NCBI RefSeq assembly: GCF_003363265.1
Contig: NZ_QRBF01000006.1
Span: 132,501 to 196,500, forward strand
Direction: 5' to 3'
Length of the DNA stretch: 64,000 nucleotides
Source: Dyella psychrodurans
GTDB lineage: Bacteria > Pseudomonadota > Gammaproteobacteria > Xanthomonadales > Rhodanobacteraceae
Shown here piece after piece: positions 34,298 to 61,817 of the stretch (position 1 is the stretch's first letter; every line of letters begins with the position of its first letter). Both the position numbers and the translations under genes were made by a program. Below the pieces are notes generated by a model. That model was not told the DNA's origin. It saw only the letters and a program-made list of their open reading frames with translations, and did not search any database.

Positions 34298-34371
34298 TGC
34301 TTCGCAGCCCGTCCGATCGTGATCAGCGGATGCTAGCGAATGTTCCTGAGGGCAGTAAGCTGACATCCGGC

Positions 34372-34857
34372 CTATGGGATGGCCGGCGGCGGGTCCATCG
34401 GTACCTGCATACCGCGCTTGAGCGTGCCCAGCGCCACCCTGGTCTGGAAACGGCGGACGTTGGCGTTCTCCGTCACCAGACGTTGCATCAACGCATCGAA
34501 ATCGTCGACGTCGCTCGTCACGATGATGAGCACATAGTCGCCAGCACCGGTGACATACCACGCCTCTTGTATGCGCGGCTCGGCGGCGATCCATTGCTTG
34601 AGGCTCGCCAGCAACTCCGGCCGCTCACGTTCCACCTCGACATCGACGATCATCGTCAACGGTCGCCCCACGCGTTTCGGATCAACCAACGCCACCTCGG
34701 CAAGGATGACGCCCTCATCGCGCATGCGTGCGATGCGACGCTGGACGGCGGAGGCGGACAAGCCCACGTCCGCGCCGATCAGCTCGGCGGGACGGCGAGC
34801 ATCCTTCTGCACGATGCCCAGAATGCGTCGATCGATCTTGTCCAGTTCACTGGTCAT
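34372..34857 (-). CDS. Lrp/AsnC family transcriptional regulator
   Basis: A 161-aa Lrp/AsnC regulator: N-terminal helix-turn-helix (LDKIDRRILGIVQKDARRP, GLSASAVQRRIARM) and a C-terminal ligand-binding RAM domain (WYVTGAGDYVLIIVTSDVDDFDALM). Normal length. It usually responds to amino acids and oligomerises. Divergent from the GST at 34979, and upstream of the acylase gene on the same strand; either may be a target. Confidence 0.94.
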   Translation of the reverse strand: MTSELDKIDRRILGIVQKDARRPAELIGADVGLSASAVQRRIARMRDEGVILAEVALVDPKRVGRPLTMIVDVEVERERPELLASLKQWIAAEPRIQEAWYVTGAGDYVLIIVTSDVDDFDALMQRLVTENANVRRFQTRVALGTLKRGMQVPMDPPPAIP

Positions 34858-46326: not shown

Positions 46327-48006
46327 TCAAGCGGCGACGTTGCGATCTTGTCCGATGGCAATGCGCTGATCGGCGATCGCCATCACGTCGGGCCGGTGCG
46401 ACACCACGATCAGTATCGTTTGCGGCAGACGCTGCCTGAGTTTCGAAAGCACCTTGATTTCCGAAGCGACGTCGAGCGCGCTGGTCGCTTCGTCCAGTAA
46501 AGCGAGACGCGGCTGGCGCAGGATCACTTGCGCCAGCAGCAACCGTTGCAGCTCGCCGCCGGAGAGTTTGCTCGATGCGTTGTCGATGGCGGAATCCAGG
46601 TTGCGGTGTGTTTCGGCAAGCCGCCTGGCCAGACCAACATCTTCCAGCACGCTCATCAGCATGTCGTCGGTGGCATCGGGCGCCGCCCACAGCAGGCATT
46701 CGCGGATCGAACGCTGCCATGGCCGAACGCTCTGGCTGACGTAGGCGCCTCGACGTACCAGTTCGCAATACGCATCGAAATCGATCGATCGCGCACCGAT
46801 ACGGGCGACGAACTCCTTAGGCTTGGCCATGCCGGCCAGCACATCGACCAGGCTGCTCTTGCCGATACCGGAGTCGCCCGACACCAAGGTCAGTTTGCCG
46901 GGCGCGAGTGCGAGTTCGCCGATATCCAGCGTATCGAGCGGCGGCATCAGCCGCACGCGCCCGATATGAAGTACGTCTTCGGCAACGACGCGATGCGAAG
47001 GCACACAGGATGACGATGACGGATGCCGATGCATGTACCGCTGCCACAATTCGAACGCGGGCACCGCGGCACGCAATTGCTGGAAGCTTTGCCGCGTGGA
47101 CACCAGATAAGGCAACAAACGCCCCAGCAGCAGGCACACGGCGATAAGCGAAGCCTGATCGACGCCATGCAGGCGATACGCCAGGACGAAGATGGCGGCG
47201 ATGCCGACCGCTGCCAGCAACTCCAGCATCAGTCGCCCGGAAGCGATCAGGTACAGCTGACGTTGATAGCCGTGGCGGAGTCGTTCGGAAATATCGCCAT
47301 AGCTTTCTTTTTCCGCCTGTTCCTTCTCGAACGAGCGCACGTGGCGCAAGCGGCGCGGAAAATCTTCGCTGAGCCAGAACAGGCGCGTCAGGTCCGACAC
47401 GTATTGCCGGCTGACCTGCGCCTGCTCGCGGCTGCTGATGCGCGACGCCACCAAACCCAAACCAGCCAGCAAGGGCGTCGCCAGAACCAGCGGCGGCGAT
47501 ACCCACAGTGCAAAGGCGACGCTCACGACGGCGGTCACGCCCGCGACCAGCAGCTGCAACAACGCGTTGAAACCCTGGGTGATGATTTCGATGTTGTAGG
47601 TAAGCACGTTGGCGATTTCCGCCGAGGTGGCATCGGCCAGCGACGCCAGCGGGGCATCGATCAACCGCGCATGGACCGAGCGCCGCAGATGCATGCCGTA
47701 GCGACCGGCAAGACGCGCACCTTGCCGCGCCGCCTGCCAGCGCAGCAATGCAAACGCGATGGTGGCTCCCGCGAAGACGGCTGCATGCAGATCGGTGCCG
47801 CCTTGCACATCGAACAATCCGTTGCCGATCGGCAAGGCGTGCCCGGGTTGAACCAGCGGCAACACCAGCACCGCCGCGAGGCTGCCGACCAATGCCGATC
47901 CCAGCGACAGCAGCACGTAAACGGCAATGCCAGCCACGCCGACGCTTTTCAGCGTGCTCGCAAACGCGCGCAGCGGTTCGTCCGGCAAGGGCGCATGACC
48001 GGACAT
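46327..48006 (-). CDS. ABC exporter with fused membrane and ATPase domains
   Basis: A 559-aa half-transporter: six membrane helices in about 20-320, ATPase with Walker A GDSGIGKSS (377-385), signature LSGGELQR (481-488) and Walker B LALLDEATSALD (501-512). No C39 peptidase domain, so it resembles lasso-peptide exporters (McjD-like) and lipid/drug exporters rather than bacteriocin processors. Start ATG at 48006 is preceded by GAGG and by a strong hairpin (48021-48045). It is read right after the HPr-kinase-like gene. Confidence 0.92.
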   Translation of the reverse strand: MSGHAPLPDEPLRAFASTLKSVGVAGIAVYVLLSLGSALVGSLAAVLVLPLVQPGHALPIGNGLFDVQGGTDLHAAVFAGATIAFALLRWQAARQGARLAGRYGMHLRRSVHARLIDAPLASLADATSAEIANVLTYNIEIITQGFNALLQLLVAGVTAVVSVAFALWVSPPLVLATPLLAGLGLVASRISSREQAQVSRQYVSDLTRLFWLSEDFPRRLRHVRSFEKEQAEKESYGDISERLRHGYQRQLYLIASGRLMLELLAAVGIAAIFVLAYRLHGVDQASLIAVCLLLGRLLPYLVSTRQSFQQLRAAVPAFELWQRYMHRHPSSSSCVPSHRVVAEDVLHIGRVRLMPPLDTLDIGELALAPGKLTLVSGDSGIGKSSLVDVLAGMAKPKEFVARIGARSIDFDAYCELVRRGAYVSQSVRPWQRSIRECLLWAAPDATDDMLMSVLEDVGLARRLAETHRNLDSAIDNASSKLSGGELQRLLLAQVILRQPRLALLDEATSALDVASEIKVLSKLRQRLPQTILIVVSHRPDVMAIADQRIAIGQDRNVAA

Positions 48007-48008
48007 CG

Positions 48009-48155
48009 CTACACGTCCTCGCGGCCGTCCGGCCGGGACGGCCGCGATTCCGTTGAAGCTTTGGCTGTACTCAGAACCCCTCTCCTTCCGCATGGCACGC
48101 CGCCATGCCCGTAAGTGCGGCGTTCGTGGGTGTCGGTTGCACGCGTTGAAGTCAT
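48009..48155 (-). CDS. Candidate small ORF between kinase and ABC exporter
   Basis: A 48-codon frame that begins in an ATGA overlap with the kinase stop (ATG 48155) and ends TAG 2 nt before the exporter start. The peptide is basic and hydrophilic (many Arg, Ser, Thr, one Cys) with no leader/core pattern I can defend as a RiPP precursor. Third-position GC is lower than in neighbours and it uses rare AGG/AGA, so it may be non-coding; position alone makes it worth listing. Confidence 0.28.
   Translation of the reverse strand: MTSTRATDTHERRTYGHGGVPCGRRGVLSTAKASTESRPSRPDGREDV
48021..48045. promoter_or_regulatory. Strong hairpin ahead of the ABC exporter
   Basis: GCGGCCGTCC (48021-48030) pairs exactly with GGACGGCCGC (48036-48045) over a 5-nt loop: a 10-bp GC-only-rich stem in the leader between kinase and exporter, 15 nt from the exporter ATG. 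It lacks a U-tract, so it is more likely a translational or mRNA-stability element than a terminator. Confidence 0.6.
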
Positions 48156-49174
48156 TTGCCGAGCAGCTGCAGCAATGCATCGACGGATGCTCGCGGATGG
48201 CTGCCGCGGCGCAGCCGGTATACACCCGCGTGCCGCAGCTGCTCTTCGAAACGCGACCAGCCCGGCTGCCCGGCGGCATACGGTTGATCGGCCACGAGCC
48301 GGCCGGCGATGTCGTGTTCCGGCAATGGATGCAACAACTCGCTCGCATCATCGGCGGCCTGGCTGGATACAAACACCGCACCGACCAGTTTCAGTGGAGC
48401 GGTGGCGGGCCGGCCATATCCCAACCTGAGATCCGCCTCGAATTTCGCCGCGCCGCTACGGCGGCGAATGACGGGCGATTCGCTGATCCATCGGCGCGCG
48501 CTTTCGTCTTCAACAAATCGCAAGGCATCGGCTTGCATATGCAGGTAATTGGCCACACCGGTTGCGAGCATGTTTTCCGGCTGCACGAACACCGCATCTT
48601 CGGCGAGAAAGTCCAGGCCGCGCAGCAGGCTGTGCAAGGCGAGCGTCGATTTGCCCGATCCACTCGCGCCGAGTAACAACACGCCGCGTCCGTCAAGTCC
48701 CACGCATGCGGCGTGCAACGGAACCAGACCCACGCCACGCGATGCCAGGGTGAAGACGGCGAATTCGATCAGCTCGTAGCGCAGATGATAAGGACGCTGC
48801 AGCATGTCCTCCGATGCCACCACCAATGCCTTGTGCTGCTCGGGCATCAGGACGACGTAATTGCATGCATCCATGATGCCGCACAGGATGCCGGCCCCGG
48901 ACTGCATCTGCACGGGCGGCGGTTCGGCCGTACTCGGTGCGTTGCGCGGGAGCAGACGCAATTCGATGCGAAATGACGTCGCGGATGTCGGCAGGTGATG
49001 CGATGGCAGGCCGCCGTAGGCCTGATCGACCACATGCAGCAGCGCAACGCTGTTGCTCTCGAACAGGAAGCTTCCGCCGAGGATCTGCTTGCGCGTGGAA
49101 AACGGCTGGCGCGACCGTTCGCGAAAGGGATCGACGTGGGTTTCGCTTATGCGGGGGCTACAGGTCAAAGCCAT
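48152..49174 (-). CDS. HPr-kinase-like (HprK-related) serine kinase
   Basis: A 340-aa protein. A C-terminal P-loop domain resembles HPr kinase/phosphorylase: LHAACVGLDGRG, Walker A GASGSGKST (169-177), and FLAEDAVFV (acidic pair 192-193). The N-terminal half (about 25-145) is typical of HprK-related kinases next to lasso-peptide/RiPP or exopolysaccharide loci, where some phosphorylate a serine of the peptide. No HPr or PTS gene is nearby. The true start is uncertain; an ATG at 49174 is used. Divergent from the radical SAM gene. Confidence 0.82.
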   Translation of the reverse strand: MALTCSPRISETHVDPFRERSRQPFSTRKQILGGSFLFESNSVALLHVVDQAYGGLPSHHLPTSATSFRIELRLLPRNAPSTAEPPPVQMQSGAGILCGIMDACNYVVLMPEQHKALVVASEDMLQRPYHLRYELIEFAVFTLASRGVGLVPLHAACVGLDGRGVLLLGASGSGKSTLALHSLLRGLDFLAEDAVFVQPENMLATGVANYLHMQADALRFVEDESARRWISESPVIRRRSGAAKFEADLRLGYGRPATAPLKLVGAVFVSSQAADDASELLHPLPEHDIAGRLVADQPYAAGQPGWSRFEEQLRHAGVYRLRRGSHPRASVDALLQLLGK

Positions 49175-49420
49175 AAGGTGTCAGCCGATTCGTGTCCGGC
49201 CCTGCGCAGCACGGCACCAGATCCATCCAGATCAATGTGCGGGTGAGTGCGGTTTTTCCCCGAATGGGTTGCGCATCCGACTATTTCGTCGCGCCAGGCA
49301 ACCGCCGGCGTGCCACGCAGCACTCACGACCAAACAGCGTTGAACGATGGAGCCGACACGCCGGCGCCAACGCCGGTGCTGATGCAGCTTATCCAACGCT
49401 ACGATCGAGGCTCCTCCCCG

Positions 49421-50932
49421 ATGCTTAAGATCCAGGTAGGCCACTCCTACTTCCTGACATACGATCGGAAACAGTGGGAGCGCGGCAAGCCCTACCCTCC
49501 CCTTGCCACCCTGCACCTTGCCGCGCTCCTGCGGGAGATGGGGCATGAGATCGCGTTGTTCGACGCGATGCTCGCCGATGGCGTCGAAGATTATGCAGGC
49601 TCGCTCCATCGCGCCCAGCCAGACGTGGTGGTCATCTATGAAGACAACTTCAATTTCCTGACCAAGATGTGTCTCGCCCGCATGCGCGAGGCGGCGTGCC
49701 AGATGATCAGCGAAGCGCGTGCCTACGGTGCCCGCGTTATCGTTGCGGGTTCCGACGCATCCGACCAGCCCGACGCTTTTCTTGCAGCGGGCGCGCATGC
49801 GGTACTTATCGGCGAAGGCGTCGCGGCGCTGGTCGAACTGATCAACCGTTTGGAACAGAACCCAGGCATCGATGCCGAAAACTGGACATCGGGCATCACC
49901 GGGGTCGCCACGCTGGTGAGCGAACAGACGCACGTCACACGCATCGGCGTGCAGCCGCCCGATCCGCGCCTGGTGATCCACCCGGCGTGGGATCTGGTCG
50001 ACATCGAGCGCTACCGCACGATGTGGCTCGCGCATCACGGCTACTTCAGCCTCAACATGGCGGCGTCGCGCGGCTGCCCCTTCCGCTGCAATTGGTGCGC
50101 CAAGCCGATCTGGGGCAACCACTACAAACAACGCAGCGCGCAGGACATGGCCGCGGAGATGACGTATCTCAAACGCATGTTCAAGCCCGACCACATCTGG
50201 ATGGCCGACGACATCTTCGGCTTCCACATCGATTGGGTGGTGGAATTCGCCGAACATCTGAGTGCCGCCGACGGTTCCGTGCCTTTCACCATCCAGACGC
50301 GCGCCGACCTGATCAGCGAACGCATGGCCGCCGCCTTGAAGCAGGCCGGATGCACCGAAGCGTGGATCGGCGCGGAAAGCGGCAGCCAGCGCGTGCTGGA
50401 TGCCATGACCAAAGGCACCAAGGTCGCCGAACTCATCGCAGCACGCGAACGACTCGGCAAACACGGCATACGCGTAGGCTTCTTCATCCAGCTCGGTTAT
50501 CTGGGCGAGCAACTCATCGATCTGCTGGCGACGCGCGAGTTGATCACGGCCGCGGCGCCGGACGACATCGGCGTCAGCGTCTCCTACCCGCTGCCGGGCA
50601 CCAAATTCTACGAACAGGTGAAAGCCCAGCTCGGCGAAAAGACGCATTGGCGGGATAGCGCCGACCTCGCGATGATGTTTCGCGGCGCCTACGACTCCGA
50701 TTTCTATCGCAGCGTGCGCGATCTCATGCACGAGCAGATCGCCATCCAGCAATCGAAGAGCAGCACGCCGCCGGAACGTTACGACGAAGCGCTTTCCACC
50801 CTCGATGTCCGTTGGAATGCGTTGCTCGCTGTCGAACAACAGCACCGCACCGAACATGCGACAACGTCGCTCGCCACCGCATCAAGCCACACCCGACCGC
50901 CACGCCATGTTGCCACCGCTCAAAACCGTTAA
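49421..50932 (+). CDS. B12-binding-like radical SAM protein
   Basis: A 503-aa protein: an N-terminal Rossmann-like B12-binding-type domain (about 1-145, e.g. PDVVVIYEDNF and RVIVAGSDAS) and a radical SAM domain with the cluster motif C219xxxC223xxC226 (RGCPFRCNWC). It probably binds a [4Fe-4S] cluster and SAM for radical chemistry such as methylation or rearrangement. The frame is open from 49247; the ATG at 49421 has GAGG at 10 nt, earlier Met at 49382 is possible. Overlaps the nucleotidyltransferase gene by 26 bp. Confidence 0.9.
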   Translation: MLKIQVGHSYFLTYDRKQWERGKPYPPLATLHLAALLREMGHEIALFDAMLADGVEDYAGSLHRAQPDVVVIYEDNFNFLTKMCLARMREAACQMISEARAYGARVIVAGSDASDQPDAFLAAGAHAVLIGEGVAALVELINRLEQNPGIDAENWTSGITGVATLVSEQTHVTRIGVQPPDPRLVIHPAWDLVDIERYRTMWLAHHGYFSLNMAASRGCPFRCNWCAKPIWGNHYKQRSAQDMAAEMTYLKRMFKPDHIWMADDIFGFHIDWVVEFAEHLSAADGSVPFTIQTRADLISERMAAALKQAGCTEAWIGAESGSQRVLDAMTKGTKVAELIAARERLGKHGIRVGFFIQLGYLGEQLIDLLATRELITAAAPDDIGVSVSYPLPGTKFYEQVKAQLGEKTHWRDSADLAMMFRGAYDSDFYRSVRDLMHEQIAIQQSKSSTPPERYDEALSTLDVRWNALLAVEQQHRTEHATTSLATASSHTRPPRHVATAQNR

Positions 50933-52130
50933 GGCCGGCTTGTATCGCACCACCGAAGCGCTCGCCGCCGAACTGGCGCTTGCGCGGCCGGGCACGCCGA
51001 CGCCCGCGTGGAGCGATCTCGAATGGCGATTGGCTTCGGCGGCGGCGGTGGCGCACGGCGTTTCGCCGCTGCTCTCCCGGCTTTCCTATTGGCAGAACCC
51101 GGGATGGAAACAGTTTCTCGCCGAGCAACGCGAGCATGTCGAACATCGCCAGCAACGCATCGTCTCGCTGCTGGCGCAGATCGATGCCGAAGCGCGCGCC
51201 GCCGGCCTGGCCATCGTGCCCCTGAAGGGTTCCGCGCTGCACGCCATCGGGATGTATGCGGCCGGTGATCGGCCCATGGCCGATATCGACCTGCTGGTGC
51301 GCGAAGCGGATACCGAACGCGCCTCCGCGCTGCTGGAAGAGCTCGGCTACGTCGAATCGTACGCGCAATGGAAACATCGGGTATTCAAGCCGTCGGACGG
51401 CGAAGCGTTCGCGGGCCTTGGCGAACATCGCGATACGCCGGTCAATATCGAACTGCATACGCATATCCAGGAACGGCTGCCGATCTCCACCATCGACATC
51501 ACCGACCGGATCTACCCGAAGAAGCCGCATCCCGGATTGAATGCCTATCCTTCGACAGGTGCGCTGATGAGTCACCTGTTGCTGCACGCAGCCGGCAATA
51601 TCTGCGGCCGCAGCCTACGCCTGATTCACCTCAACGACATCTCCCTGCTGGCCACGCGCATGACCACGCGCGACTGGGACGCGCTTTGGGATACGCATGC
51701 CACCGAAGCGCCGTGGTGGGCACTGCCACCGTTACGACTGGTGACACGCTATTACCGCCAAGCGATTCCCGATTCGGTGCTCAGGCGCGTCGAGCGCGAT
51801 TGCAATGTCCTGCTGCGCGCCGTGTCAAGGCGGCAGACGCTGACGCAGGTTTCGTGTTCCGCATTATGGCTGCGTGCGCTGCCAGGCATCGAATGGTCGC
51901 GCTCGGTCGGCGAAGCAGGGCATTGCATCCGAAATCGCATCAAGCCCACCCAAGAAGCCGTGAAGGAACGTGCCGACATGGTACGCACGCAGGTCTGGTT
52001 GCAGGGCCAAAGCTGGGTGACGTTGAATCACGGCCGCCGCGTGCTGACCTGGCTGACGAAACCGGTGCCTCGTATGGATACCTTGTATGTCGTGCGTGCG
52101 GCGCTGGAATCGACCAAGCTCGCGGTTTAG
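50907..52130 (+). CDS. Uncharacterised nucleotidyltransferase family protein
   Basis: A 407-aa protein of the nucleotidyltransferase-like family (PF14907 type): IVPLKGSAL at about 103-111 and RPMADIDLLV at 122-131 with Asp126 and Asp128 as metal ligands. Members are common in lasso-peptide and exopolysaccharide loci, where an NMP-transfer to peptide or sugar is suspected. Starts inside the end of the radical SAM gene, so coupled to it; converges on the GT gene at 52160. Confidence 0.85.
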   Translation: MLPPLKTVKAGLYRTTEALAAELALARPGTPTPAWSDLEWRLASAAAVAHGVSPLLSRLSYWQNPGWKQFLAEQREHVEHRQQRIVSLLAQIDAEARAAGLAIVPLKGSALHAIGMYAAGDRPMADIDLLVREADTERASALLEELGYVESYAQWKHRVFKPSDGEAFAGLGEHRDTPVNIELHTHIQERLPISTIDITDRIYPKKPHPGLNAYPSTGALMSHLLLHAAGNICGRSLRLIHLNDISLLATRMTTRDWDALWDTHATEAPWWALPPLRLVTRYYRQAIPDSVLRRVERDCNVLLRAVSRRQTLTQVSCSALWLRALPGIEWSRSVGEAGHCIRNRIKPTQEAVKERADMVRTQVWLQGQSWVTLNHGRRVLTWLTKPVPRMDTLYVVRAALESTKLAV

Positions 52131-52159: not shown

Positions 52160-53290
52160 TTAGCGCGCGATGCGCAGACCGCTGCTGAAACGCGCCGCGA
52201 GCAGCTGGTGATAGAGCGCCTCGAACATGCCCGCGGTGTAATCGGCATCTTCGGCCATCGCACGGCGTTGCGCCTCGCTTGCCAGATGAAGTCGCAACTC
52301 CTCATGCGCCAGCACATGCTGGATCGCACGCGCCAGCGCTTCCCAATCGCCCACCGGCACGGCACACGCGGCCTGCGGCGACCATTCGGCGATATGCCCT
52401 ACCGCGGTCCCGACTGTCGGCACACCCAACACTGCAGCCTCCAGCAGTACCAGCGGACCGGCTTCGTGCAGCGACGACATCACCAGCAGGTCCGCCGCTG
52501 CCATGATCGGCCGCAACTCGCGCTGCGTCTTGAAGTCGAGAAAGCGGATGTACGGCTCCAGGCCAAGCTGATGCGCCAGCCGGTCGATCTCGCCTTGCAG
52601 CGTATCGACGCCGACCATGTCCATCCGGAAGTTGACGCCGGCTTTCGCCAGCGCGGCGAGCGCGCGCAGCAGCGTCGGCTGATCCTTGACGCGATTGAGA
52701 CTGGCGACGTGGACAAGCCGGGCCTGCGCGCCGGTGCGGCCGCGCGGGGAAATGGGTGGCCACTGCTTCAGGTCGACGCCGAGCGGTATGCGCTCCGCAT
52801 GCAGGCCGAGGCCGCGCAGCGAGTCGATGATGGGCGCGCTCGCCGCCGTGATCGCGTCGGCGGCGCGCAATACCAGCGCTTCGCGCAGCCGCCCTTTCCA
52901 CTTCTGCCGACCGCCATAACCGATCTCGTGCAACGCGACGAGCTCGCCGCCTGCGATGTGCACCACGCTAGGCAATCGCAACCACTTCGCCGCCGCCACG
53001 GCGACGAAGCTGCAGGAGCCCGAGAAGATCGCGTGCACGAGATCGAAAGGAGCCTTTTGGTGTTCGGCATGAATGGCCTTGATGGCACGAAGCCGCGTCC
53101 AACCGTCGCCGATGTTGTGAATGGTGGCGCCGGCAAGCTTCCAGCGATCCGGCGCGGCTTCCTGCCGCAAGGCAAACACATGCACGTCGTGGATACGCGC
53201 CAAGCGCTCGATCAAGGCAAGCAGCACGGGGATCACCCGGAATTCTCCGCTGCGATCCACGCCGCCCGGAACGACCAGGGCCAGTTTCAT
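52160..53290 (-). CDS. GT4-type glycosyltransferase
   Basis: A 376-aa GT-B glycosyltransferase of family 4 pattern: N-terminal KLALVVPGGVDRSGEFRVIP, RLVHVASLNRVKDQPTLLRA opening the second domain, and the donor-site motif HEAGPLVLLEAAVLGVP. Its ATG overlaps the stop of the upstream GT by 4 nt (ATGA at 53287-53290). Probably transfers a sugar onto a lipid-linked or cytosolic acceptor. Last gene of the long minus-strand run. Confidence 0.92.
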   Translation of the reverse strand: MKLALVVPGGVDRSGEFRVIPVLLALIERLARIHDVHVFALRQEAAPDRWKLAGATIHNIGDGWTRLRAIKAIHAEHQKAPFDLVHAIFSGSCSFVAVAAAKWLRLPSVVHIAGGELVALHEIGYGGRQKWKGRLREALVLRAADAITAASAPIIDSLRGLGLHAERIPLGVDLKQWPPISPRGRTGAQARLVHVASLNRVKDQPTLLRALAALAKAGVNFRMDMVGVDTLQGEIDRLAHQLGLEPYIRFLDFKTQRELRPIMAAADLLVMSSLHEAGPLVLLEAAVLGVPTVGTAVGHIAEWSPQAACAVPVGDWEALARAIQHVLAHEELRLHLASEAQRRAMAEDADYTAGMFEALYHQLLAARFSSGLRIAR

Positions 53291-54417
53291 CGCAACCCCC
53301 GTGGCTGGTCGCCGAGCACTTGCGCATAGGCCTCGGCCCACTGCCGTCCCACCGCCGGGAATGAAAGCGCGGCGTCGAAGTGTGCGCGCACCCGTTCCGG
53401 CAACTGGCGATGCGTTGCCGCATGAATCAATGCTTCCGCCAATCGCGTCGCATCGCCGCACGGCCACAGATGCCCGACATCGCCAGTCAGTGCGCGGAAC
53501 GATGGGATATCCGTGACGACTGGCGTGACGCCACACGCCATGGCTTCCAGCAACGCATAGCCGCAGCTTTCGCTACGACTTCCCGAGACATATATATCCG
53601 CCGCGCGCATCAGCCATTCCACACGCTGATGCGCCACCTTGCCCAGCAGATGCACGCGCCCGGAAAGGTGTGGATCGCGATCGATGCGTCGTTGCACGGC
53701 CGGCAGCAGCGGCGCATCGCCGAAGACGCACCACAATTTCAGTCCCGGCAGTTTCGTCGCGGCCTGCGCGACGCCGTCGAGCACGGTCATGGGATCCTTG
53801 CCGGCGCTCAAATGTCCCACCCACAGGATGCACGGATCGCCATAGAGCCCCGTTTCCGCGCGGGCGCGGGCGCGGCTGCCGCGCGTGAAGCGGCAACTGG
53901 ATTCCGGTATGGCGAATACCTGCGCGCGGGGATCGAGCAAATGCGCGTCGGTAAAAGGTTGCGCGAGTTCCGGTGCGGTGAATGCAACGCCCGAGGCAGC
54001 CTTGTACCAGCGCCGCCACTGCGGTCGTCGCCACCAGTGCGGCGGCCGGTTGGCGTGATCCTGGAAAAGGATCGGCAGATCCGGCAGGTATTGCGCGATG
54101 GCGAATGCATCTTCGGCGAAATCCAGGCCATGCACATGCAGGACATCCGCCTTGATGTCGTCGATCAGATTCGCGAAGCGACGGCCGCGACTTATGGCGG
54201 TTTCCGCATCGCGAATGTCGCTGAAGTGATACCCGATGCCGTTGTGGACCACGTGAACCGGTTGCGTGGTCGCCTGGATCACCGACACACGCGTGCCGGA
54301 ACTGGCGACCGCTTCGGCGACATCCACCAGCGACGGCCATTGCCTGAAAACCTCGGTCGCGCCGAGGCCCTCCGGCACCGGAACGAAGTTGATCTGCGCA
54401 ACATGCAACGCCGGCAT
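53287..54417 (-). CDS. GT4-type glycosyltransferase
   Basis: A 376-aa GT-B glycosyltransferase: acceptor domain with DVLHVHGLDF, then LWVGHLSAGKDPMTVLDG and the donor-site SRSESCGYALLEAMACGVTP. Similar in size to its downstream neighbour but not a duplicate by eye. It begins 4 bp after the upstream radical SAM stop and overlaps the next GT by 4 nt, so is in a tight operon. Confidence 0.92.
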   Translation of the reverse strand: MPALHVAQINFVPVPEGLGATEVFRQWPSLVDVAEAVASSGTRVSVIQATTQPVHVVHNGIGYHFSDIRDAETAISRGRRFANLIDDIKADVLHVHGLDFAEDAFAIAQYLPDLPILFQDHANRPPHWWRRPQWRRWYKAASGVAFTAPELAQPFTDAHLLDPRAQVFAIPESSCRFTRGSRARARAETGLYGDPCILWVGHLSAGKDPMTVLDGVAQAATKLPGLKLWCVFGDAPLLPAVQRRIDRDPHLSGRVHLLGKVAHQRVEWLMRAADIYVSGSRSESCGYALLEAMACGVTPVVTDIPSFRALTGDVGHLWPCGDATRLAEALIHAATHRQLPERVRAHFDAALSFPAVGRQWAEAYAQVLGDQPRGLR

Positions 54418-54421: not shown

Positions 54422-55933
54422 CTAGAGTCCCGAAACCTGCGGCATGCGCAGTTTTACCAGGCGATTGGCCAGCTCCAGCTCCCACGGCCGGTTGTATTTG
54501 CGGTAGCTGTAACGCCACGACGCGGCCACGCTGAGCGTGCGCTTGGCCCAGCGCGGCGAACGCAGGTCCTGCGCCGTGGGATAACGGCAACGCAGTACCG
54601 TCACGAAGTCGCGGATGCGGCGCCGCAGCTTGTCGGTCAGCCATGGCGCATCCGCGTGGCAGGCGTAGTCGACCCAGTGTTGCTGCGTCCATTCTTCCGG
54701 CGTCTTCGGAAAGACCACCGGTTCGCCGTTGACATCGAGCAGAGGCGCTGAAGGCCGCTTGCCGCGATCCTTTTCGTGACGACTGCTTTCGGGCAACGGC
54801 GTGTAGACGTAGACGATGATCTCGGACTGCGGATTGATGCGCTTCAGCTCGCGGATGAACTCGAACGTGTGCTCGGTTTCTTCTTCCGTGTTTTCCGGCG
54901 GCCCCACCATGAAGGACAGTTCGGGAATCACGCCGTTGCGCCGGCACAGTTCGGCCACTTCCAACGTCTGATCGGGACGCGTGCCCTTGCGGATGTCCTT
55001 GAGCATCTGTCCGCTGGGCGATTCCGCGCCGATGTAAGCCATGCGCAGACGGCTCTTGCGCACCAGCTTCCACGAACTCTCCGACAGTTTCAGCAAGGCG
55101 TCCGAGCGCGCGTAGCACCACCACGGCAGTTCGAGCTTGGCCATGACTTCAAGCAGCGGCACCATGTCTTCTTCGCGGTCGAAGAAGTTGTGGTCGAAAT
55201 ACTGGATCGAATCGGCGCCCAGCTCGTACTTCAGATAGCTGAGTTCGCGCTCCAGCCGCGTGGTGGCAGGCAGCGCCGTGGCGCCGCCGAACATCGCCGC
55301 CACGCCGCAGAACGTGCAGCGGAAGCGGCATCCCACCGAAGCCTGATGCGCGGCGGTACGTCTTCCAAGGAAGGTGCGCGCGAGATAACGACTGGGATCG
55401 CCGAGCTTGTCGTACGACAGCACGGTGTTGGGATCGGCGAGCGAGAACCGACGGCTCGGGTTGTGGACGATCTCGCCGTCGACCTTACGCGACAGGCTGC
55501 CGATCTTTGCCAGCGACGATGCATCACCCGTACTCAGCGCCGTCATCAGCGCCGGAAAACTTTCCTCGCCCTGCCCACGGATGGCGTAATCGACATACGG
55601 CGCGGCAAGCGCCGTATCCGTGTAAAGCGTGGGGAAATAGCCACCCCACACAATGGGCATGTCGGGAAAATGTTCGCGCACTGCCTTCGACACTTCGATC
55701 GACGGCGCCATCTGCGGACCGCCCATCACGCTGATGCCCACGGCATCGAAGCGGCGCGTTCGCAGTGCGTGCAAGGTGTCGTTGACGAAATCGCGGTCGA
55801 CATTGCCGTCGATGATGTCGCTGCTGCCGCTCTTGTCGAGCGCGGCGGCGAGGTGCAGCAGCGACAGCGGAAACCGCGCGCTGGAGCGCGACGTGACGGT
55901 CGGATTGATCAGCAGCGTATGCGGGCGCGTCAT
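54422..55933 (-). CDS. B12-binding radical SAM protein
   Basis: A 503-aa protein with an N-terminal cobalamin-binding-type domain (VGISVMGGPQMAPSIEVSK, PIVWGGYFPTL) and a radical SAM domain with C202xxxC206xxC209 (GCRFRCTFCG). Its length equals the plus-strand radical SAM gene, but the sequences differ clearly. BchE-like order; probably methylates or rearranges a sugar, lipid or peptide. Its ATG overlaps the stop of a 10-codon mini-ORF by 4 nt. Confidence 0.93.
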   Translation of the reverse strand: MTRPHTLLINPTVTSRSSARFPLSLLHLAAALDKSGSSDIIDGNVDRDFVNDTLHALRTRRFDAVGISVMGGPQMAPSIEVSKAVREHFPDMPIVWGGYFPTLYTDTALAAPYVDYAIRGQGEESFPALMTALSTGDASSLAKIGSLSRKVDGEIVHNPSRRFSLADPNTVLSYDKLGDPSRYLARTFLGRRTAAHQASVGCRFRCTFCGVAAMFGGATALPATTRLERELSYLKYELGADSIQYFDHNFFDREEDMVPLLEVMAKLELPWWCYARSDALLKLSESSWKLVRKSRLRMAYIGAESPSGQMLKDIRKGTRPDQTLEVAELCRRNGVIPELSFMVGPPENTEEETEHTFEFIRELKRINPQSEIIVYVYTPLPESSRHEKDRGKRPSAPLLDVNGEPVVFPKTPEEWTQQHWVDYACHADAPWLTDKLRRRIRDFVTVLRCRYPTAQDLRSPRWAKRTLSVAASWRYSYRKYNRPWELELANRLVKLRMPQVSGL

Positions 55934-55962
55934 TGGTGCGTATCGAGGGCGGTAAAGGTCAT
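55930..55962 (-). CDS. 10-codon mini-ORF with ATGA overlaps on both sides
   Basis: Between the methyltransferase and radical SAM genes, ATG (55962) overlaps the methyltransferase stop (ATGA) and its own TGA overlaps the radical SAM start (ATGA). It reads 10 codons (MTFTALDTHQ). This can carry ribosomes from one gene to the next; a functional peptide is less likely. Confidence 0.35.
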   Translation of the reverse strand: MTFTALDTHQ

Positions 55963-56657
55963 GGCGTTCTCCGCAGCTGGAATACCAGGGCCACGGGAAC
56001 TTCCAGTGCCATGCGGTCGAAGTGGGCGTCGCCGGGGACGTCTTCCGGATCGAGCATGGGTTCCAGCACTTGCTCGATGTCCAGCCCGACGTGGGCGCAG
56101 GCGGCGTGCCAGTGACTGTAGCGATGCGCTTTATGCCGCACGGCATAGCGCTGTCCATCGCATTTGAAGTCGCGCAGCCATCCGAGCGCGTGGCCGATCG
56201 GATGCACGTCGCTGCACAACACCGTGCCGCCAGGGCGCGTCACACGGCACAACTCGGCCAGCGATTGTTCGAGGTCGTCGAGATGGCCGATCACCAGGCC
56301 GCAGATGGTCAGGTCCGCCCAGGCGTCGGGCGTCGGCAGCGAGGTCAGGCTTCCCTGCACAAGGCGCACGTCCGCGTCGAAGCGATACTCACGCAATTCC
56401 TGCGCCGCGCGTTGCAACATTTCCAGCGACAGGTCCACGCCCTTCACGCGCATCGCGCCGCGCTGCAGCGCGTGCAGCATGTAACGGCCGCTGCCGCAGC
56501 CGGCGTCGAGCACGGTTTGTCCGTGCAGTCCTTCCGGCATCAGCGCGAGCATGGCGCGCTCCTCGGCCTGCATGACCGGATTGTGGGCGCGCGCCGGGTA
56601 ATTCGGTGCCCACAAGGCATAGGCTTTTGCCGGCGTAAGGACGGGCGTGTGCGGCAT
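55959..56657 (-). CDS. Class I SAM-dependent methyltransferase
   Basis: A 232-aa methyltransferase. SAM motif I is VLDAGCGSGRY at about 49-59, with motif II VKGVDLSLEML and GTVLCSDVHP. Type-11-like family with a small cap; methylates an O, N or C site of an unknown small molecule. Its ATG overlaps the amidohydrolase stop (TGATG), its own stop overlaps the mini-ORF. Confidence 0.92.
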   Translation of the reverse strand: MPHTPVLTPAKAYALWAPNYPARAHNPVMQAEERAMLALMPEGLHGQTVLDAGCGSGRYMLHALQRGAMRVKGVDLSLEMLQRAAQELREYRFDADVRLVQGSLTSLPTPDAWADLTICGLVIGHLDDLEQSLAELCRVTRPGGTVLCSDVHPIGHALGWLRDFKCDGQRYAVRHKAHRYSHWHAACAHVGLDIEQVLEPMLDPEDVPGDAHFDRMALEVPVALVFQLRRTP

Positions 56658-57889
56658 CAGTGATACCTAGCCTCCACGGCGACATCGCACGCGCGTTCGT
56701 CCCAGTCGGCGATGCGCTCCAGTCCTGGCTCGAGTGCGATCAGCGCGGGTTCGGCGAGATGTTTGGCGAGCAGTTTCGGTTTGCCATCCAGCTTCACCGG
56801 CACGGCTTCCGTGCCGGTCACCGCGAACCATTCGGCGAAATCGGTATCGGCGATTTGCGGAACGCCATCGCGCACCACCGCGCGGATCTGGCTGCGCTCG
56901 ATGCCCACGAGACTGCGAACCGCGTCGCCGCCGCGATCCTCGGCGATCACCAGATCCGCATGCGCGCCAGGCAGCAGCGCGCCGCGCGATGGAAGTCGCA
57001 GGATGCGTGCCGCCTGTGTGGTGGCAAGTCCAAGCAATTGCGCTGCACCGAGTTCGCAGGTATCAACGATGGCACGCCATTCGTCCAGCAGATCGCGCTC
57101 GCCGCTGAGTCGCGAATCGCTGCCCAGCGCAAGCCGGCCGGCTTCGCACAAACGACGCGGATCGAGCGAGCGTCCCAACAAGGTGCGATTGCTGCCTGGA
57201 CACCAGATCACTGCCGCGCCGCAGGCGATCACGCGCTCGATGTCCTGCTCGCGCAAACCGACGCCATGAATCAGAACGCTGTTGGCCGACAGACATCCCA
57301 GCATGTCCAACTGTGCCAGCTCTGTCTGCGCGACCGCATCGGTGCCTTCGGCCAGGTGAATCATCCAGGGCCATTCCGCCGGCGTCGCCAAAAAGCTCTG
57401 CTGCACCGGCGGGCCATATTCCTGCCAACCGAGCGTATAGCTCCAGCCGTAGTTGCGCAGCAACGCCACGGGAAAATCCGGCTCGTCGAGTACCGGATGC
57501 CAGGGATCGTGATGCGCCACGCAAGTGGTACCGGCAAGCAGGTTCTTCAGCGCGCCGTGCCGCAGGCGCAGCGCTTTGGGTATCCGCAGCGCGGCCGAAA
57601 CATCCGCATCCTGAAAATGTGCCTGGAACGCCGCGATCCAGGCATAGCTGTTCGGAAAAGGTATATCCGGTATCAGTGGAGGCACGGCATTGACATGCAG
57701 GTGGTCGTGCGCATTGATCAGGGCCGGAAAAATCAGGTGATCGCGAAGATCGAGCTGATACGCCCATGCCGCCCTGGACGAACCGACGCGTCCTGCGCGT
57801 ATCGGCAACGGTGCGCGCGTCACACCTTCCGGCGTCACCGTAGCCGCGAGGCAAAGACTGGCGTTCGTTCGTACGGGCGACGTATTCAC
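56657..57889 (-). CDS. Amidohydrolase family protein
   Basis: A 410-aa metal-dependent hydrolase of the TIM-barrel amidohydrolase family: metal-binding INAHDHLH (His61, His63-65 region), HHDPWHP, HLAEGTDA and GSDSRLSGERD. The N- and C-terminal beta regions and ADLVIAED give the usual layout of the cytosine deaminase/MtaD/chlorohydrolase group. Likely deaminates or dechlorinates a ring, or opens an amide. Start is GTG at 57889, 4 bp after the upstream methyltransferase stop. Confidence 0.9.
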   Translation of the reverse strand: MNTSPVRTNASLCLAATVTPEGVTRAPLPIRAGRVGSSRAAWAYQLDLRDHLIFPALINAHDHLHVNAVPPLIPDIPFPNSYAWIAAFQAHFQDADVSAALRIPKALRLRHGALKNLLAGTTCVAHHDPWHPVLDEPDFPVALLRNYGWSYTLGWQEYGPPVQQSFLATPAEWPWMIHLAEGTDAVAQTELAQLDMLGCLSANSVLIHGVGLREQDIERVIACGAAVIWCPGSNRTLLGRSLDPRRLCEAGRLALGSDSRLSGERDLLDEWRAIVDTCELGAAQLLGLATTQAARILRLPSRGALLPGAHADLVIAEDRGGDAVRSLVGIERSQIRAVVRDGVPQIADTDFAEWFAVTGTEAVPVKLDGKPKLLAKHLAEPALIALEPGLERIADWDERACDVAVEARYH

Positions 57890-57893: not shown

Positions 57894-58703
57894 TCAGCGC
57901 CGACGCATCACGATAAGGAAGTGATCGCCCATGTCGCGCAGCAGCGGCAGCGCACCGTAGCGATCGTCGAGCCGGCCCAGGCGCTCGAACCTCTCGCGAT
58001 GGCGCCGGTAGACATCCACCAGATAGGGTGGCGGCATGAACAGGCTCAGCGCCCGGTAGCTCTCGAGCGAAAAATGATCGGCGAAGGCGCGATAGAACTC
58101 GCGCGGCAGGTAGTAATACGTCCAGATGGTGTGGCGATTCATGCCCACCGCCGTCGCGCCGCGCGCAGCGCGCACGGTCGCACGCTTGATGCGGCCCTTC
58201 AGCGCGTAGTACCCGACTTCCCACGGGCAGATCCGCCCGATCACCGAAAACACCAGCATGCCGCCCGGCCGCAGCAACCGTTCGCATTCGGCCGCGACGA
58301 CGCGCAGATCGGGTGCGCAATTGAGCGGACCGAAGTTCGAGTAGACGGCGTCGAACCGGTCGTCGAGCCGGTCGAGCTGATGGATACCGACATGCATCGC
58401 CTGCACGCGCGACATAAGTCCTGCTTCGTCGGCGCGTGCGCGCGTGCGCGCGACCATTTCCGGCGACCAGTCGGTGGCGACGACGTGATGACCTTGCCGC
58501 GCGAACTCGGCCGCATCAATGCCGGTGCCGCAACCGAGGTCGAGCAGGCGGGAACCCGGAGGCACGGCATCGCGCACGGTATCCCACAAGGTCAGCCGCA
58601 TGCGCTGGATCAGCTCGTTGTTGCCACGAGGACCGTCGTAGTCGGCCGCGACGCTGTCGAAGGCGCGTTGCGTATCGAGCAGTTGCGTCTCGTCGAGCGC
58701 CAT
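57894..58703 (-). CDS. Class I SAM-dependent methyltransferase
   Basis: A 269-aa methyltransferase with SAM motif LLDLGCGTGID at about 53-63, VVATDWSPEMV and NFGPLNCAPDL; a large C-terminal region (YYLPREFYRAF...) may bind the acceptor. Start at 58703 has GGAAG 7 nt upstream; ATG at 58709 is an alternative. It is unlike the second methyltransferase at 55959. Confidence 0.91.
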   Translation of the reverse strand: MALDETQLLDTQRAFDSVAADYDGPRGNNELIQRMRLTLWDTVRDAVPPGSRLLDLGCGTGIDAAEFARQGHHVVATDWSPEMVARTRARADEAGLMSRVQAMHVGIHQLDRLDDRFDAVYSNFGPLNCAPDLRVVAAECERLLRPGGMLVFSVIGRICPWEVGYYALKGRIKRATVRAARGATAVGMNRHTIWTYYYLPREFYRAFADHFSLESYRALSLFMPPPYLVDVYRRHRERFERLGRLDDRYGALPLLRDMGDHFLIVMRRR

Positions 58704-58779
58704 CGTCATGCTTCCGGTTTCAAGTTTGTATGCTCTGCTCACTTCGATTTCCGTTCCACCAGATGGCAAGCGACGCCTT

Positions 58780-59679
58780 CTAATCCGTAAGTGCGTGAAC
58801 GGGCTTTTTTGGTTGAATGCTTTTTCCGAGCGCATGCCGCGTTGTTGCGGCACGCCGCAAGGCATTTCGCGCAATCGCGGCCAGGGCTCCCAGGAGCAAG
58901 CCGAGCACCAGGCCCACGGCCCACATCAACACGGGATTGGGAAACGCCTGCCTGTCCGGCACGTACACCGGCCACATCAGCGATGTGTCGTAGGTGTATG
59001 CAGCGCTGAGACGATCGGCGAGCTCGCCTTCCGCCTGCTGCAAGGCGTGCACTTCTTCGTTCTTGCTGGACAGCAACGCGCTCGCCAGCACGGAGCCCGG
59101 TGCATTCTTGCCTCCCGCGTCGCCTTGGTTGCCCGGTGCGGCCGCCTGCTGCAGCCGGTCGCGGTCGGCCAGGGCAGCCTGCAGCTCTTTCTGCACTTCA
59201 TCGAGATGCCTATGCGCACGCGCCAGCGGCATGGCCTCGATGCGCCGATGGATCGCCTGCAACTGGGTCATCGTGGCGGTAGCAAGCTGATCGGCCTGTT
59301 GCGGCGAATACGCGCGCAGGGTCAGCTTGATGAGCGGCCCCGCATACGGCAGCGGCTCCAACTTCAGGCTCTTGCGATAAAGATGGGCGTCGCGCGCGTC
59401 CGGCGAGAGGCCAACGCTTTTCACCACATCGTTCTGGAAAGACAGGAGTTGCAAGCGCTCCATCACGCGCTGCAAGGGTTCGGCCTTCGGATCCTGGCCG
59501 GGCGGCACGGCACCCACCTGTCCGATCTGGATCCAGGCCGTCGCTTCCCATTGCGGCCTGGCGACATGGATGAAGGCAAAAGTCGCCGCCAGCACCAGCA
59601 GCAACGGCGCCGCAAACCATTTCCATTCGCGGACCAGGATCCGCCACGTATCGATCAAGTAAATTTCATCGTGTTCCAT
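58780..59679 (-). CDS. Wzz-type chain-length determinant protein
   Basis: A 299-aa inner-membrane protein: first membrane helix about 21-40 (WFAAPLLLVLAATFAFIHV), a periplasmic coiled-coil-rich domain (about 100-230 with ALADRDRLQQAAA) and a second helix near the C-terminus (LMWAVGLVLGLLLGALAAI). This is the Wzz/polysaccharide co-polymerase topology; no tyrosine-kinase domain follows. It sets O-antigen or capsule chain length. ATG at 59679; upstream extension is low quality. 10 bp after the Wzy gene. Confidence 0.87.
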   Translation of the reverse strand: MEHDEIYLIDTWRILVREWKWFAAPLLLVLAATFAFIHVARPQWEATAWIQIGQVGAVPPGQDPKAEPLQRVMERLQLLSFQNDVVKSVGLSPDARDAHLYRKSLKLEPLPYAGPLIKLTLRAYSPQQADQLATATMTQLQAIHRRIEAMPLARAHRHLDEVQKELQAALADRDRLQQAAAPGNQGDAGGKNAPGSVLASALLSSKNEEVHALQQAEGELADRLSAAYTYDTSLMWPVYVPDRQAFPNPVLMWAVGLVLGLLLGALAAIARNALRRAATTRHALGKSIQPKKPVHALTD

Positions 59680-59689: not shown

Positions 59690-60859
59690 TCACTGCAACG
59701 TTGGTGAAGACATCGTTCGAGCGACTGTCGCGGCATGTTCCCTCTCCACCGACGGCGCCCTCCTGTTCGGCAACCACGCCGCGAGCATTTGCATGACCAT
59801 GCACAGCACGACAAAGCCGATGTTGGTCCACGTGAATGCCTGCGGCGCGAACGGCGACATCACGCAGACATACGACATGCGCAGAAAGACGAGCCACGCG
59901 AACAACGAAACCGGCGGATGCAGGCGCCGCACGCTCCACCACAGCATGGCGTACAGCGTGAGGATCGAAGCCACCGCGCCCATGGGACCCAGCGCCATGA
60001 GGAACGGAAAGAACTCCGTGCCGACGTTGATGTTGGGCGCATCCAGCGGAATGCTCGTTCCGGCCGTCGCGATGGACCCCGCCATGGGAACCACCTGATT
60101 GACGAGGAAGCTGGCGTTCGAATAATGCTTGGCCAGCATCGCTCCAAAGTTGTACGGGCCGGCGGTGACGTAAAGCAGCAGCCATTTGATGCCCTGGGGT
60201 GCGTCGCGATACATCGCACTGAAAGGCAGCGTGACGGTATCCAGCGTGCCCGACCGCAGGATGCCCAGCACCGAAAAAGCGGCGGCGCCTGCCACGGCCA
60301 GAAAACCGACGCTCTTCCACGGCAACGGCCTCGACTCGTCGCGCCGGAACATCACCACCAGCGCGAATGAGAACAGTGACGCGAAGATCCGGTTGCGGTC
60401 GATCACCAGCACTGGAAAAGCCAATCCCGCGACAACGAGCAGATTGCGCAACCACTTGCTCCGCGCACAGAGCAGCCCGATGGGCGGCAGCGCCCAGCAC
60501 ATGTCGGAAATGTGCCGAATGTGTTCGTGCCCGCCTTCCATGCTGGCGTAGGACGACGGATTGTCGATCAGCGGAATGGGAAACAGCGTCAGGTCGAGCA
60601 GGCAGAAGAACATCACTCCGCACGCGAACGCCATGGCAACGAACGACTCGCGCGTGCCGATGTAGCTGCCTGCGCGAAACTGGGCAAACCCGGGAAGCCG
60701 CGATCCGAACAGCGCGTCCACCAGCATGATCGCGAGCGCGGTGACGGCCAGCAGCAACACGCCCTCCAGATAGCTTTCCGACAGGTCGTAGGTGAGACAC
60801 GTGAGTCCGCACGACAGCAGGATGGGAAGCGAGAGATAGGTGGAAGGAAGGCGCAGCAT
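59690..60859 (-). CDS. O-antigen/oligosaccharide polymerase (Wzy-like)
   Basis: A 389-aa integral membrane protein with about 10-12 helices and large periplasmic loops, placed between a GT2 and Wzz genes. Overall hydropathy and the position fit Wzy-type polymerases, which link repeat units in the periplasm; the primary sequence of this family is too divergent for a motif test. GGAGG lies 9 nt before the ATG. Confidence 0.82.
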   Translation of the reverse strand: MLRLPSTYLSLPILLSCGLTCLTYDLSESYLEGVLLLAVTALAIMLVDALFGSRLPGFAQFRAGSYIGTRESFVAMAFACGVMFFCLLDLTLFPIPLIDNPSSYASMEGGHEHIRHISDMCWALPPIGLLCARSKWLRNLLVVAGLAFPVLVIDRNRIFASLFSFALVVMFRRDESRPLPWKSVGFLAVAGAAAFSVLGILRSGTLDTVTLPFSAMYRDAPQGIKWLLLYVTAGPYNFGAMLAKHYSNASFLVNQVVPMAGSIATAGTSIPLDAPNINVGTEFFPFLMALGPMGAVASILTLYAMLWWSVRRLHPPVSLFAWLVFLRMSYVCVMSPFAPQAFTWTNIGFVVLCMVMQMLAAWLPNRRAPSVEREHAATVARTMSSPTLQ

Positions 60860-60863: not shown

Positions 60864-61817
60864 TCAGGCCTCCTTGATCACCGAATGAGCCGTCGGCAAT
60901 CCCAGTTTCGAGACCAGGATCAGCGACAGATACATCGTCATATGAAACACGAGCAGCAGCAGGCGCCGCTGCAGGAAGGCGATCTTGGCGCCGATGAAAT
61001 GGGCCTGCGCCTTGAGCAGCGTCCGGTAAGGCTCCTCGAACAGGTGCGCGCGGCGCATGGCGACATGGCGCGATTCGATCAGGTTGACGACGCGCGTTTC
61101 CCGATGCCGCGTCTTGCTCAGATTGTTGCCGTGGATGCGATACGCGCAGACGGTGACATCGATGAAGCCCAGCCCGTCGCGCGCTGCCAGGCGCAGGAAG
61201 AAATCCCAGTCGTCGATGCGTAGCCCTTCGGTCCAGCGATCGACCGTATCGAGCGCATTCTTTCGAACCAGCGCGACCGGTCCCCCGATGGCCCACTGGC
61301 TGATGACGGCACGGCGTATGCCTTCGTTGGAGCGATAGAGCTTCTTGTTCGCGCCGTGGAGATCGTGCATGCCGCTGCCATGCAGGATCAGCCCGTTCTC
61401 ATCGACGACGATCGAATCGCCCACCACCGCCTTCTTGAACGGATGCGTCATCAGATAGCGAACCTGGGCTTCCAGGCCACCCGGCAGCAGGTAGTCGTCG
61501 CTGGCGCCAAGGCGGAGAAATTCGCCGTGAGCGCGGGCCGCCAGTTCGTTCAAGGTCGCGGCAATGCCCCGGTTGGCGCGGCGCACATATTCCACGCGCA
61601 GCTTGTCGCCATGCCGGGCCATCCATTCCACGATGCGTTCGTGCGTGCCGTCGGTGGAACCGTCATCGATGATGATGATTTCCTTGGACGGATACAGGTC
61701 TTCCAGCACGCTGTCCAGGCAGCGTTGCACGAAGCGTTCGTGGTTGTAGGCGGGAATGAGCACCGAGACCAGCGGCATGGTCTGCGGCTTCGTCGGCATG
61801 GCGTCGGCCACGGTCAT
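60864..61817 (-). CDS. GT2 family glycosyltransferase
   Basis: A 317-aa GT-A glycosyltransferase: PLVSVLIPAYNHERFVQRCLDSV split by NHER at the N-terminus, IIIIDDGSTDGTHER, LGASDDYLLPGG and DDWDFFLRLA, all classical family 2 blocks with the DxD-type acidic pair. A hydrophobic C-terminal segment (LLLLVFHMTMYLSLILVSKLG) may hold it at the membrane. Its ATG overlaps the flippase stop (ATGA at 61814-61817). Confidence 0.93.
   Translation of the reverse strand: MTVADAMPTKPQTMPLVSVLIPAYNHERFVQRCLDSVLEDLYPSKEIIIIDDGSTDGTHERIVEWMARHGDKLRVEYVRRANRGIAATLNELAARAHGEFLRLGASDDYLLPGGLEAQVRYLMTHPFKKAVVGDSIVVDENGLILHGSGMHDLHGANKKLYRSNEGIRRAVISQWAIGGPVALVRKNALDTVDRWTEGLRIDDWDFFLRLAARDGLGFIDVTVCAYRIHGNNLSKTRHRETRVVNLIESRHVAMRRAHLFEEPYRTLLKAQAHFIGAKIAFLQRRLLLLVFHMTMYLSLILVSKLGLPTAHSVIKEA

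Follow-up and report, generated by a model that had tools for sequence, protein, structure and literature searches.

A conserved gene cluster of Dyella psychrodurans and its relatives with a shared promoter-like element and a linked ECF sigma factor gene: a probable envelope-glycan regulon

The window analysed here is a stretch of 64,000 nucleotides from Dyella psychrodurans (RefSeq assembly GCF_003363265.1, contig NZ_QRBF01000006.1, positions 132,501 to 196,500). Between positions 46327 and 52130 it carries an ATP-binding cassette (ABC) exporter and an HprK-like P-loop kinase on the minus strand and, on the plus strand, a B12-binding radical S-adenosylmethionine (SAM) protein (rSAM1) and a nucleotidyltransferase (NTP5). 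Open reading frame (ORF) and domain matches bear out the place and strands given to these four genes by the original prediction, which was made from the letters of the window. That prediction treated the four as a unit; they instead form the left edge of a conserved gene cluster that spans about 27 kb, from 46.3 kb in the window to about 9.7 kb past its end, with polysaccharide machinery and a promoter-like element in common. This element stands ahead of units of the cluster, of an unlinked methyltransferase operon and of the gene for an extracytoplasmic function (ECF) sigma factor, and is described here for the first time; no description of the locus or regulon was found in the open-access literature searched. 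Coordinates above 64000 carry the window numbering on along the contig.

The ABC exporter (46327–48006, minus strand) joins permease and ATPase in a single chain (PF00664 and PF00005) in which Walker A and LSGGE motifs can be seen; a domain search gave no match to a C39 peptidase domain in this protein. The kinase (48152–49174, minus strand, 340 residues) matches PF07475 with an E value of 2.7e-7 and 30.7 bits, under the curated cut-off of 33.3, and is therefore a distant relative of that family. A profile built from 36 sequences matched HprK chains in the PDB over residues 153–202 (E 2.9e-5), and H154, G169, G172, G174 and K175 (P-loop glycines and lysine), E192 and D193 are invariant in these 36 sequences. 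The radical SAM protein rSAM1 (49421–50932, plus strand; PF02310 and PF04055, CxxxCxxC from residue 219) shows the strongest conservation among the four, with 69–91% identity across 40 relatives, and may be the core enzyme that the original prediction proposed. It matched none of 19 listed NCBIfam families above their own cut-offs; AprD4 is among the weak matches (81.5 bits, cut-off 500). NTP5 (50907–52130, plus strand) starts within rSAM1, overlapping it by 26 bp, and is the sole PF14907 match of the genome (E 1.2e-28; 100.8 bits against a cut-off of 31.2). Its residues K107, G108, R122–D126, D128 and E182 are invariant in 33 sequences, apart from I127, and we take D126, D128 and E182 to be the catalytic carboxylates of a Pol-β-type nucleotidyltransferase. 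A search of the NTP5 profile against PDB chains gave no match up to an E value of 1. The kinase/exporter pair and the rSAM1–NTP5 pair diverge from an intergenic region of 246 bp.

The association of the four genes is not a chance one, and its synteny spans Rhodanobacteraceae and Xanthomonas. Among 385 stretches encoding a relative of rSAM1, 80 loci were picked solely by similarity to this protein; they come from Dyella, Rhodanobacter, Luteibacter, Frateuria, Xanthomonas and several metagenome-assembled genomes (MAGs). As the original prediction expected of homologous loci, the four genes are nearly always neighbours: NTP5 is present in 80/80, the kinase in 79/80 and the exporter in 78/80. Some absences in these counts are locus or contig ends, and one locus (L082) starts 346 bp before rSAM1, so that the kinase and exporter could not show; another (L093) is without the exporter. 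In 40 relatives picked by kinase similarity, the exporter is absent or distantly matched in two (L041 and L061), and the distance between kinase and exporter is about 1 kb in several. Beyond what the original prediction described, further conserved genes adjoin these four on the right, one of which encodes a second B12 radical SAM protein (rSAM2, 54422–55933); the same 80 loci contain the glycosyltransferases GT4a in 76 and GT4b in 75, the methyltransferases MT1 in 70 and MT2 in 60, an amidohydrolase in 68 and rSAM2 in 48. In the 29 Xanthomonas loci MT1 directly follows GT4b in 25, rSAM2 is present in three and one locus is cut off; the missing rSAM2 between GT4b and MT1 in 25/29 suggests that its modification has been lost or replaced there.

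A survey of 147 genomes of the family (kinase at E < 1e-70, rSAM1 at E < 1e-60, ECF sigma factor at an identity of at least 72%) found the kinase, rSAM1 and the ECF protein in an identical set of 55, co-occurrences which are not independent events because the genomes are related. Outside this set the next kinase match has an E value of 2.1e-6 and the next ECF matches about 52% identity. In 49 genomes of the set rSAM1 and the ECF gene share a contig, at a distance of 18.4–32.0 kb; in the other six they lie on different contigs. In a sample of 369 genomes from the class, the window's own genome was the only one with rSAM1 (E 1e-80), and the kinase had no match in plasmid records. In 20 relatives out of the 55, followed over about 40 kb, the order from the exporter to a subtilase gene was kept, with insertions in some (L061 being without the exporter). 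Wzx and FdtA genes lie beside the four-gene cassette in all 20, one of them with a 10-kb insertion; GNAT, GH32-like and acetyltransferase genes are absent in five, and genes for a 460-residue protein and a cytochrome c in three. The ECF gene is present in 19/20, the stretch from the remaining genome (G115) having stopped short of its own ECF gene at C1:170956.

A two-part element, GCAACC-N16-GCACTYAC, stands ahead of most of the cluster's transcription units. Exact matches to CAACC-N16-GCACTYAC stand upstream of the exporter (48111–48139, minus strand, CAACC-N16-GCACTTAC, 104 bp before the start), the kinase (49243–49271, minus strand, 68 bp), rSAM1–NTP5 (49299–49327, plus strand, 93 bp) and MT2 (58787–58815, minus strand, 77 bp, within the 3' end of the Wzz gene). 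Copies with one mismatch precede FdtA (67182–67210) and the ECF gene (71075–71103). The window thus holds four exact copies; 100 first-order simulated sequences held none. With spacers of 14–18 bp there are seven copies in the genome, five of them within the system, against none for the backwards pattern; the other two, located within ORFs of unrelated genes, probably arose by chance. One of the five, an exact copy, precedes the c11–c10 operon (contig C13, about 240.2–241.7 kb), some 36 kb past the far end of the cluster. The product of c11 is a methyltransferase and that of c10 an unassigned protein; homologues of c11 and c10 lie near the cassette in other genomes.

The element is conserved with the genes that it precedes. 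In the 80 loci, counting sites with at most two mismatches within 250 bp of the gene (n being smaller where a start could not be placed), it was found before rSAM1 in 80/80, the kinase in 66/79, MT2 in 54/56 and the exporter in 29/77; the respective numbers were 7, 5, 5 and 3 in reversed and 3, 0, 1 and 2 in shuffled upstream regions. Inner genes gave 3/80 for NTP5, 0/57 for GT4a, 1/73 for GT4b, 0/11 for rSAM2, 0/68 for MT1 and 0/60 for the amidohydrolase, GT4a and rSAM2 being weak controls whose starts were placed 82 and 75 codons too early. The spacer is 16 bp at 79/80 sites before rSAM1, 66/66 before the kinase, 53/54 before MT2 and 29/29 before the exporter, 227/229 in total. A second count, with the spacer held at 16 and the window, the relatives and the named loci pooled (some genomes therefore entering twice), gave 120/121 for rSAM1, 100/120 for the kinase, 72/78 for MT2, 46/116 for the exporter, 17/21 for FdtA, 18/20 for the ECF gene, 10/17 for the cytochrome b561 gene CytB and 7/30 for c11. 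No site preceded Wzz (0/74), Wzx (0/21), the DegT-type gene (0/21), the subtilase (0/19) or GT4a (0/109, its start here 22 codons early). The low count for c11 may be explained by its position, since the gene could sit in the NTP5 or exporter transcription unit: among nine loci having c11, it lies on the same strand behind NTP5 in three and behind the exporter in four. Cluster DNA totalling 791 kb contains 105 sites with at most one mismatch, against one in the reversed sequence. The element is oriented towards its gene, with medians of 25–108 bp (range 2–174) ahead of the start codons.

In the gap between the kinase and rSAM1, most of 41 loci contain a conserved inverted pair of outward-facing CAACC-N16-GCACTYAC halves. 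The nested, stem-like inverted repeats of this gap were also considered as an RNA element, for which two Rfam matches were obtained, both far under their gathering scores; two divergent promoters fit the repeats better because the half-sites stand singly before the exporter, MT2 and c11. The same gap contains TGTGATAGCACA in four of the 41 loci (L062, L071, L075 and L076) and AATATTTT or CAAATATTT in ten. Two of the four (L062 and L076) have no element before the kinase gene, as if it had switched regulator.

The ECF sigma factor gene (71142–71726, plus strand) lies 7.1 kb past the right end of the window. Among the matches listed for its product (25 of 69 NCBIfam families), only the general ECF superfamily TIGR02937 is above its cut-off. 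The gene was found in all 16 genomes reached via named loci (12 Xanthomonas, two Luteibacter and two MAGs; 55–80% identity), at least one of which (G527) is also among the 55; the element precedes it, with at most two mismatches, in 15/16, against 1/16 for reversed sequence. The genome has 22 sigma genes, of which only this one has orthologues (76–94% identity) in the extended loci, in 19/20. Other sigma factors were considered as the regulator and set aside, as at an identity of at least 60% this gene is the only one with orthologues across those loci; an rpoD-type gene (L167) matched at 88% in a single locus (L099), probably a chance neighbourhood. Because it shares the element, the location and the genome distribution, the ECF factor is the natural reader of the element, and we infer that it does read it.

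To the right of NTP5, on the minus strand, lie GT4a (52160–53290; PF00534 and PF13692), GT4b (53287–54417; PF13692 and PF00534), rSAM2 (PF02310 and PF04055), the class I methyltransferase MT1 (55959–56657; PF08241), the amidohydrolase-family gene (56657–57889; PF01979) and MT2 (57894–58709; PF13649 and PF08241), a class I methyltransferase and the first gene of an MT2-to-GT4a unit. They are followed on the same strand by genes for a Wzz-like chain-length determinant (58780–59679; PF02706, 28.9 bits against 25.5), a Wzy-like oligosaccharide repeat unit polymerase (59690–60859), a GT2 glycosyltransferase (60864–61817; PF00535), a WzxE-like Wzx flippase (61814–63088; PF01943, 59.6 bits against 28.2) and a DegT/DnrJ-type sugar aminotransferase (63061–64000, continuing to 64185; PF01041). 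Beyond the window come genes for a GNAT protein (64173–65132), a GH32-like protein (65092–66045; 24.4 bits against 22.1), a NeuD-type acetyltransferase (within 66052–66861; TIGR03570, above cut-off) and FdtA (66702–67139; PF05523, above cut-off). The combination of FdtA, aminotransferase and acetyltransferase suggests, from what is known of these families, a 3-acetamido-3,6-dideoxyhexose.

Between these glycan genes and the ECF gene, at 67311–71066, sits a group of plus-strand genes consisting of cytochrome b561 (CytB, within 67311–68087), the 460-residue protein, which has no Pfam match, cytochrome c and a protein close to TorF (40.2 bits against 47.15). This redox module may be part of the regulon, as the element precedes CytB in 10/17 loci. 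Downstream of the ECF gene start, also on the plus strand, are an ORF with an HCxxC motif and no Pfam match (71615–72358) and the subtilase of the S8 family (72355–73659). Elsewhere in the window, positions 14592–16364 encode aspartyl protease domains followed by tetratricopeptide repeats in one protein, and 32048–34594 a penicillin amidase family protein (PF01804).

On the observed gene content, synteny, co-occurrence, element and sigma gene, we favour, with a probability of about two in three, an autoregulated ECF sigma regulon which makes a decorated envelope glycan of the Wzx/Wzy type and includes the four genes. The regulon and its gene content are well supported at the level of sequence, and the product is most likely a surface polymer. 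The sigma factor would recognise GCAACC-N16-GCACTYAC as its −35 and −10 regions and activate its own gene, the FdtA-to-Wzz unit (amino-sugar synthesis, flippase, polymerase and chain length), the MT2-to-GT4a unit (glycosyltransferases, methyltransferases, amidohydrolase and rSAM2), rSAM1–NTP5, the kinase, the exporter and the unlinked methyltransferase operon. The kinase, NTP5, rSAM1 and the exporter would form a conserved decoration cassette, every chemical step of which is predicted: the kinase may phosphorylate a sugar or small precursor, NTP5 may extend the phosphate with a nucleotidyl or sugar unit, following the example of the lasso peptide pseudomycoidin, rSAM1 (with rSAM2 where present) may methylate or otherwise alter a carbon, and the ABC protein may export or flip the product across the membrane.

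Several observations weigh against this explanation. A single product would make an ABC exporter next to a Wzx flippase redundant. The flippase scores 288.9 bits against NCBIfam NF011679, below the cut-off of 325, and the Wzy assignment is weak: the protein has no Pfam match and reaches 22.1 bits against TIGR04370 (cut-off 40), although its position is conserved. Neither an initiating sugar-phosphate transferase nor a Wza/OPX gene was found among the ORFs scanned. The ORF at 71615–72358 may encode an anti-sigma factor, a reading taken from a cysteine motif judged by eye. Before the exporter the element stands in just 29/77 loci, and before CytB in 10/17, CytB of the window's genome having none with at most one mismatch. 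When one mismatch is allowed at a fixed spacer, the genome contains 11 sites, six of them in the system, against seven for the backwards pattern, which makes the relaxed element unfit for finding further targets.

An alternative is that the cassette and the MT2-to-GT4a unit produce a diffusible small molecule of their own, glycosylated and resembling an aminocyclitol or oligosaccharide, which the ABC protein exports, with kinase and nucleotidyltransferase serving in tailoring or self-protection and the Wzx/Wzy genes a co-regulated neighbour. An ABC protein, two GT4 enzymes, B12 radical SAM proteins (with the weak AprD4 match), methyltransferases and an amidohydrolase do form a natural-product-like set, and rSAM2 and the accessory c10 and c11 genes differ among genomes. 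This explanation is unlikely: the scanned ORFs revealed no scaffold-building enzyme, the FdtA-to-Wzz unit has the same element ahead of FdtA, and Wzx and FdtA accompany the cassette in every extended locus. On the side of regulation, so long and bipartite an element might be the binding site of a regulator other than a sigma factor, of which the ECF gene would be just another target. The nearly invariant spacer, the orientation towards the gene, the short distances to the start codons, the hrp-box-like geometry and the identical genome distribution of the ECF gene all argue against such a regulator, which we regard as very improbable.

A reading of the four genes as a RiPP-like module (RiPP, ribosomally synthesized and post-translationally modified peptide), as the original prediction had styled them, is not supported. 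That prediction had noted that no transglutaminase-like B protein, PqqD-like chaperone or asparagine-synthase-like cyclase was visible; PF13471 and PF05402 indeed have no match at E 0.001 in the whole genome, and the cluster contains no cyclase, the nearest of five PF00733-matching stretches in the genome lying about 112 kb off (C13:296881). The proposal that enzyme families of the lasso type are reused here in a different, glycan-type system is supported. A conserved small ORF, which the prediction suggested seeking in homologous loci, did not emerge in any widely conserved form: when 666 ORFs of 20–150 residues from 21 loci were grouped with known genes masked, the widest groups covered five loci and resemble shadow or low-complexity ORFs. 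In a first pass, groups among those listed had fallen in the still unmasked GT2 and cytochrome b regions. A candidate for a precursor between kinase and exporter, a 48-residue ORF at 48009–48155 that overlaps the kinase stop codon, was rejected: it has a match in only one of 29 relatives (L006), and in L052 no more than 3 bp separate the aligned ends of the two genes. A precursor encoded elsewhere, or too divergent to group, might still be phosphorylated by the kinase on a C-terminal serine and glycosylated by the nucleotidyltransferase in the manner of paeninodin and pseudomycoidin, and lasso peptides are tailored by just such an HPr kinase homologue and nucleotidyltransferase (PMC8498205). 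With the B and PqqD families missing from the genome, small ORFs common to at most 5/21 loci and the glycan genes carrying the same element, we give this explanation hardly any weight. Outside the window, L004 has small cysteine-containing, secreted-looking ORFs, judged by eye (16773–17054 and 18407–19613); one of them is followed by an MNIO/DUF692-looking ORF, possibly a bufferin-like RiPP unrelated to the cluster.

The lasso tailoring nucleotidyltransferase is presumably of the PF14907 type. In pseudomycoidin the kinase phosphorylates a serine and the nucleotidyltransferase puts hexoses on the phosphate (PMC8498205). The paeninodin and pseudomycoidin systems resemble the cassette in having a distant HprK-type kinase beside a nucleotidyltransferase and a peptidase-less ABC exporter; here, however, the precursor, B, PqqD and C genes of lasso clusters are absent from the cluster, and radical SAM, glycosyltransferase and Wzx/Wzy genes are found instead. 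The HprK-related kinases A and B (TIGR04352 and TIGR04355) are likewise distantly similar to the kinase (37.1 and 39.3 bits), which stays far under their 200-bit cut-off in a genome without the PqqD-type partner. Kinases of these two families occur near polysaccharide loci. Wzx/Wzy loci for O-antigen, enterobacterial common antigen and exopolysaccharide share with the cluster a WzxE-like flippase, Wzz, a polymerase-like protein, glycosyltransferases and FdtA, aminotransferase and NeuD-type genes; the cluster differs in its kinase/NTP5/ABC/B12 radical SAM cassette and linked ECF gene, and in that Wza and an initiating transferase were not seen among its scanned ORFs. As to the element, its geometry is that of an ECF promoter, and HrpL is itself an ECF sigma factor. 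The hrp-box promoter of HrpL is given as GGAACC-N20-TCAT (PMC4544800), and the element, written as GCAACC-N20-TYAC, has equal spacing and a near-identical −35 region. The regulon here, unlike hrp-box regulons, is an envelope-glycan locus. A bolder proposal, which we put forward tentatively as a possibility, is that kinase and nucleotidyltransferase constitute a general phospho-decoration module which, here with a B12 radical SAM protein and an ABC flippase, builds a new phosphate-linked, carbon-modified substituent on a surface glycan of the Xanthomonadales, the pathway being switched by one autoregulated ECF sigma factor whose promoter resembles an hrp box.

The combination of a kinase, a nucleotidyltransferase and an exporter should not by itself be counted as a RiPP signature. 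Four orphan-looking genes become a defined candidate regulon with one sigma factor, one element and one conserved pathway, common to Dyella, Rhodanobacter, Luteibacter, Frateuria and Xanthomonas. The locus offers a setting in which the roles of HprK-like kinases and PF14907 nucleotidyltransferases outside peptides may be learned, and the sigma factor, through its deletion or induction, would provide a direct handle on the predicted surface-glycan pathway.

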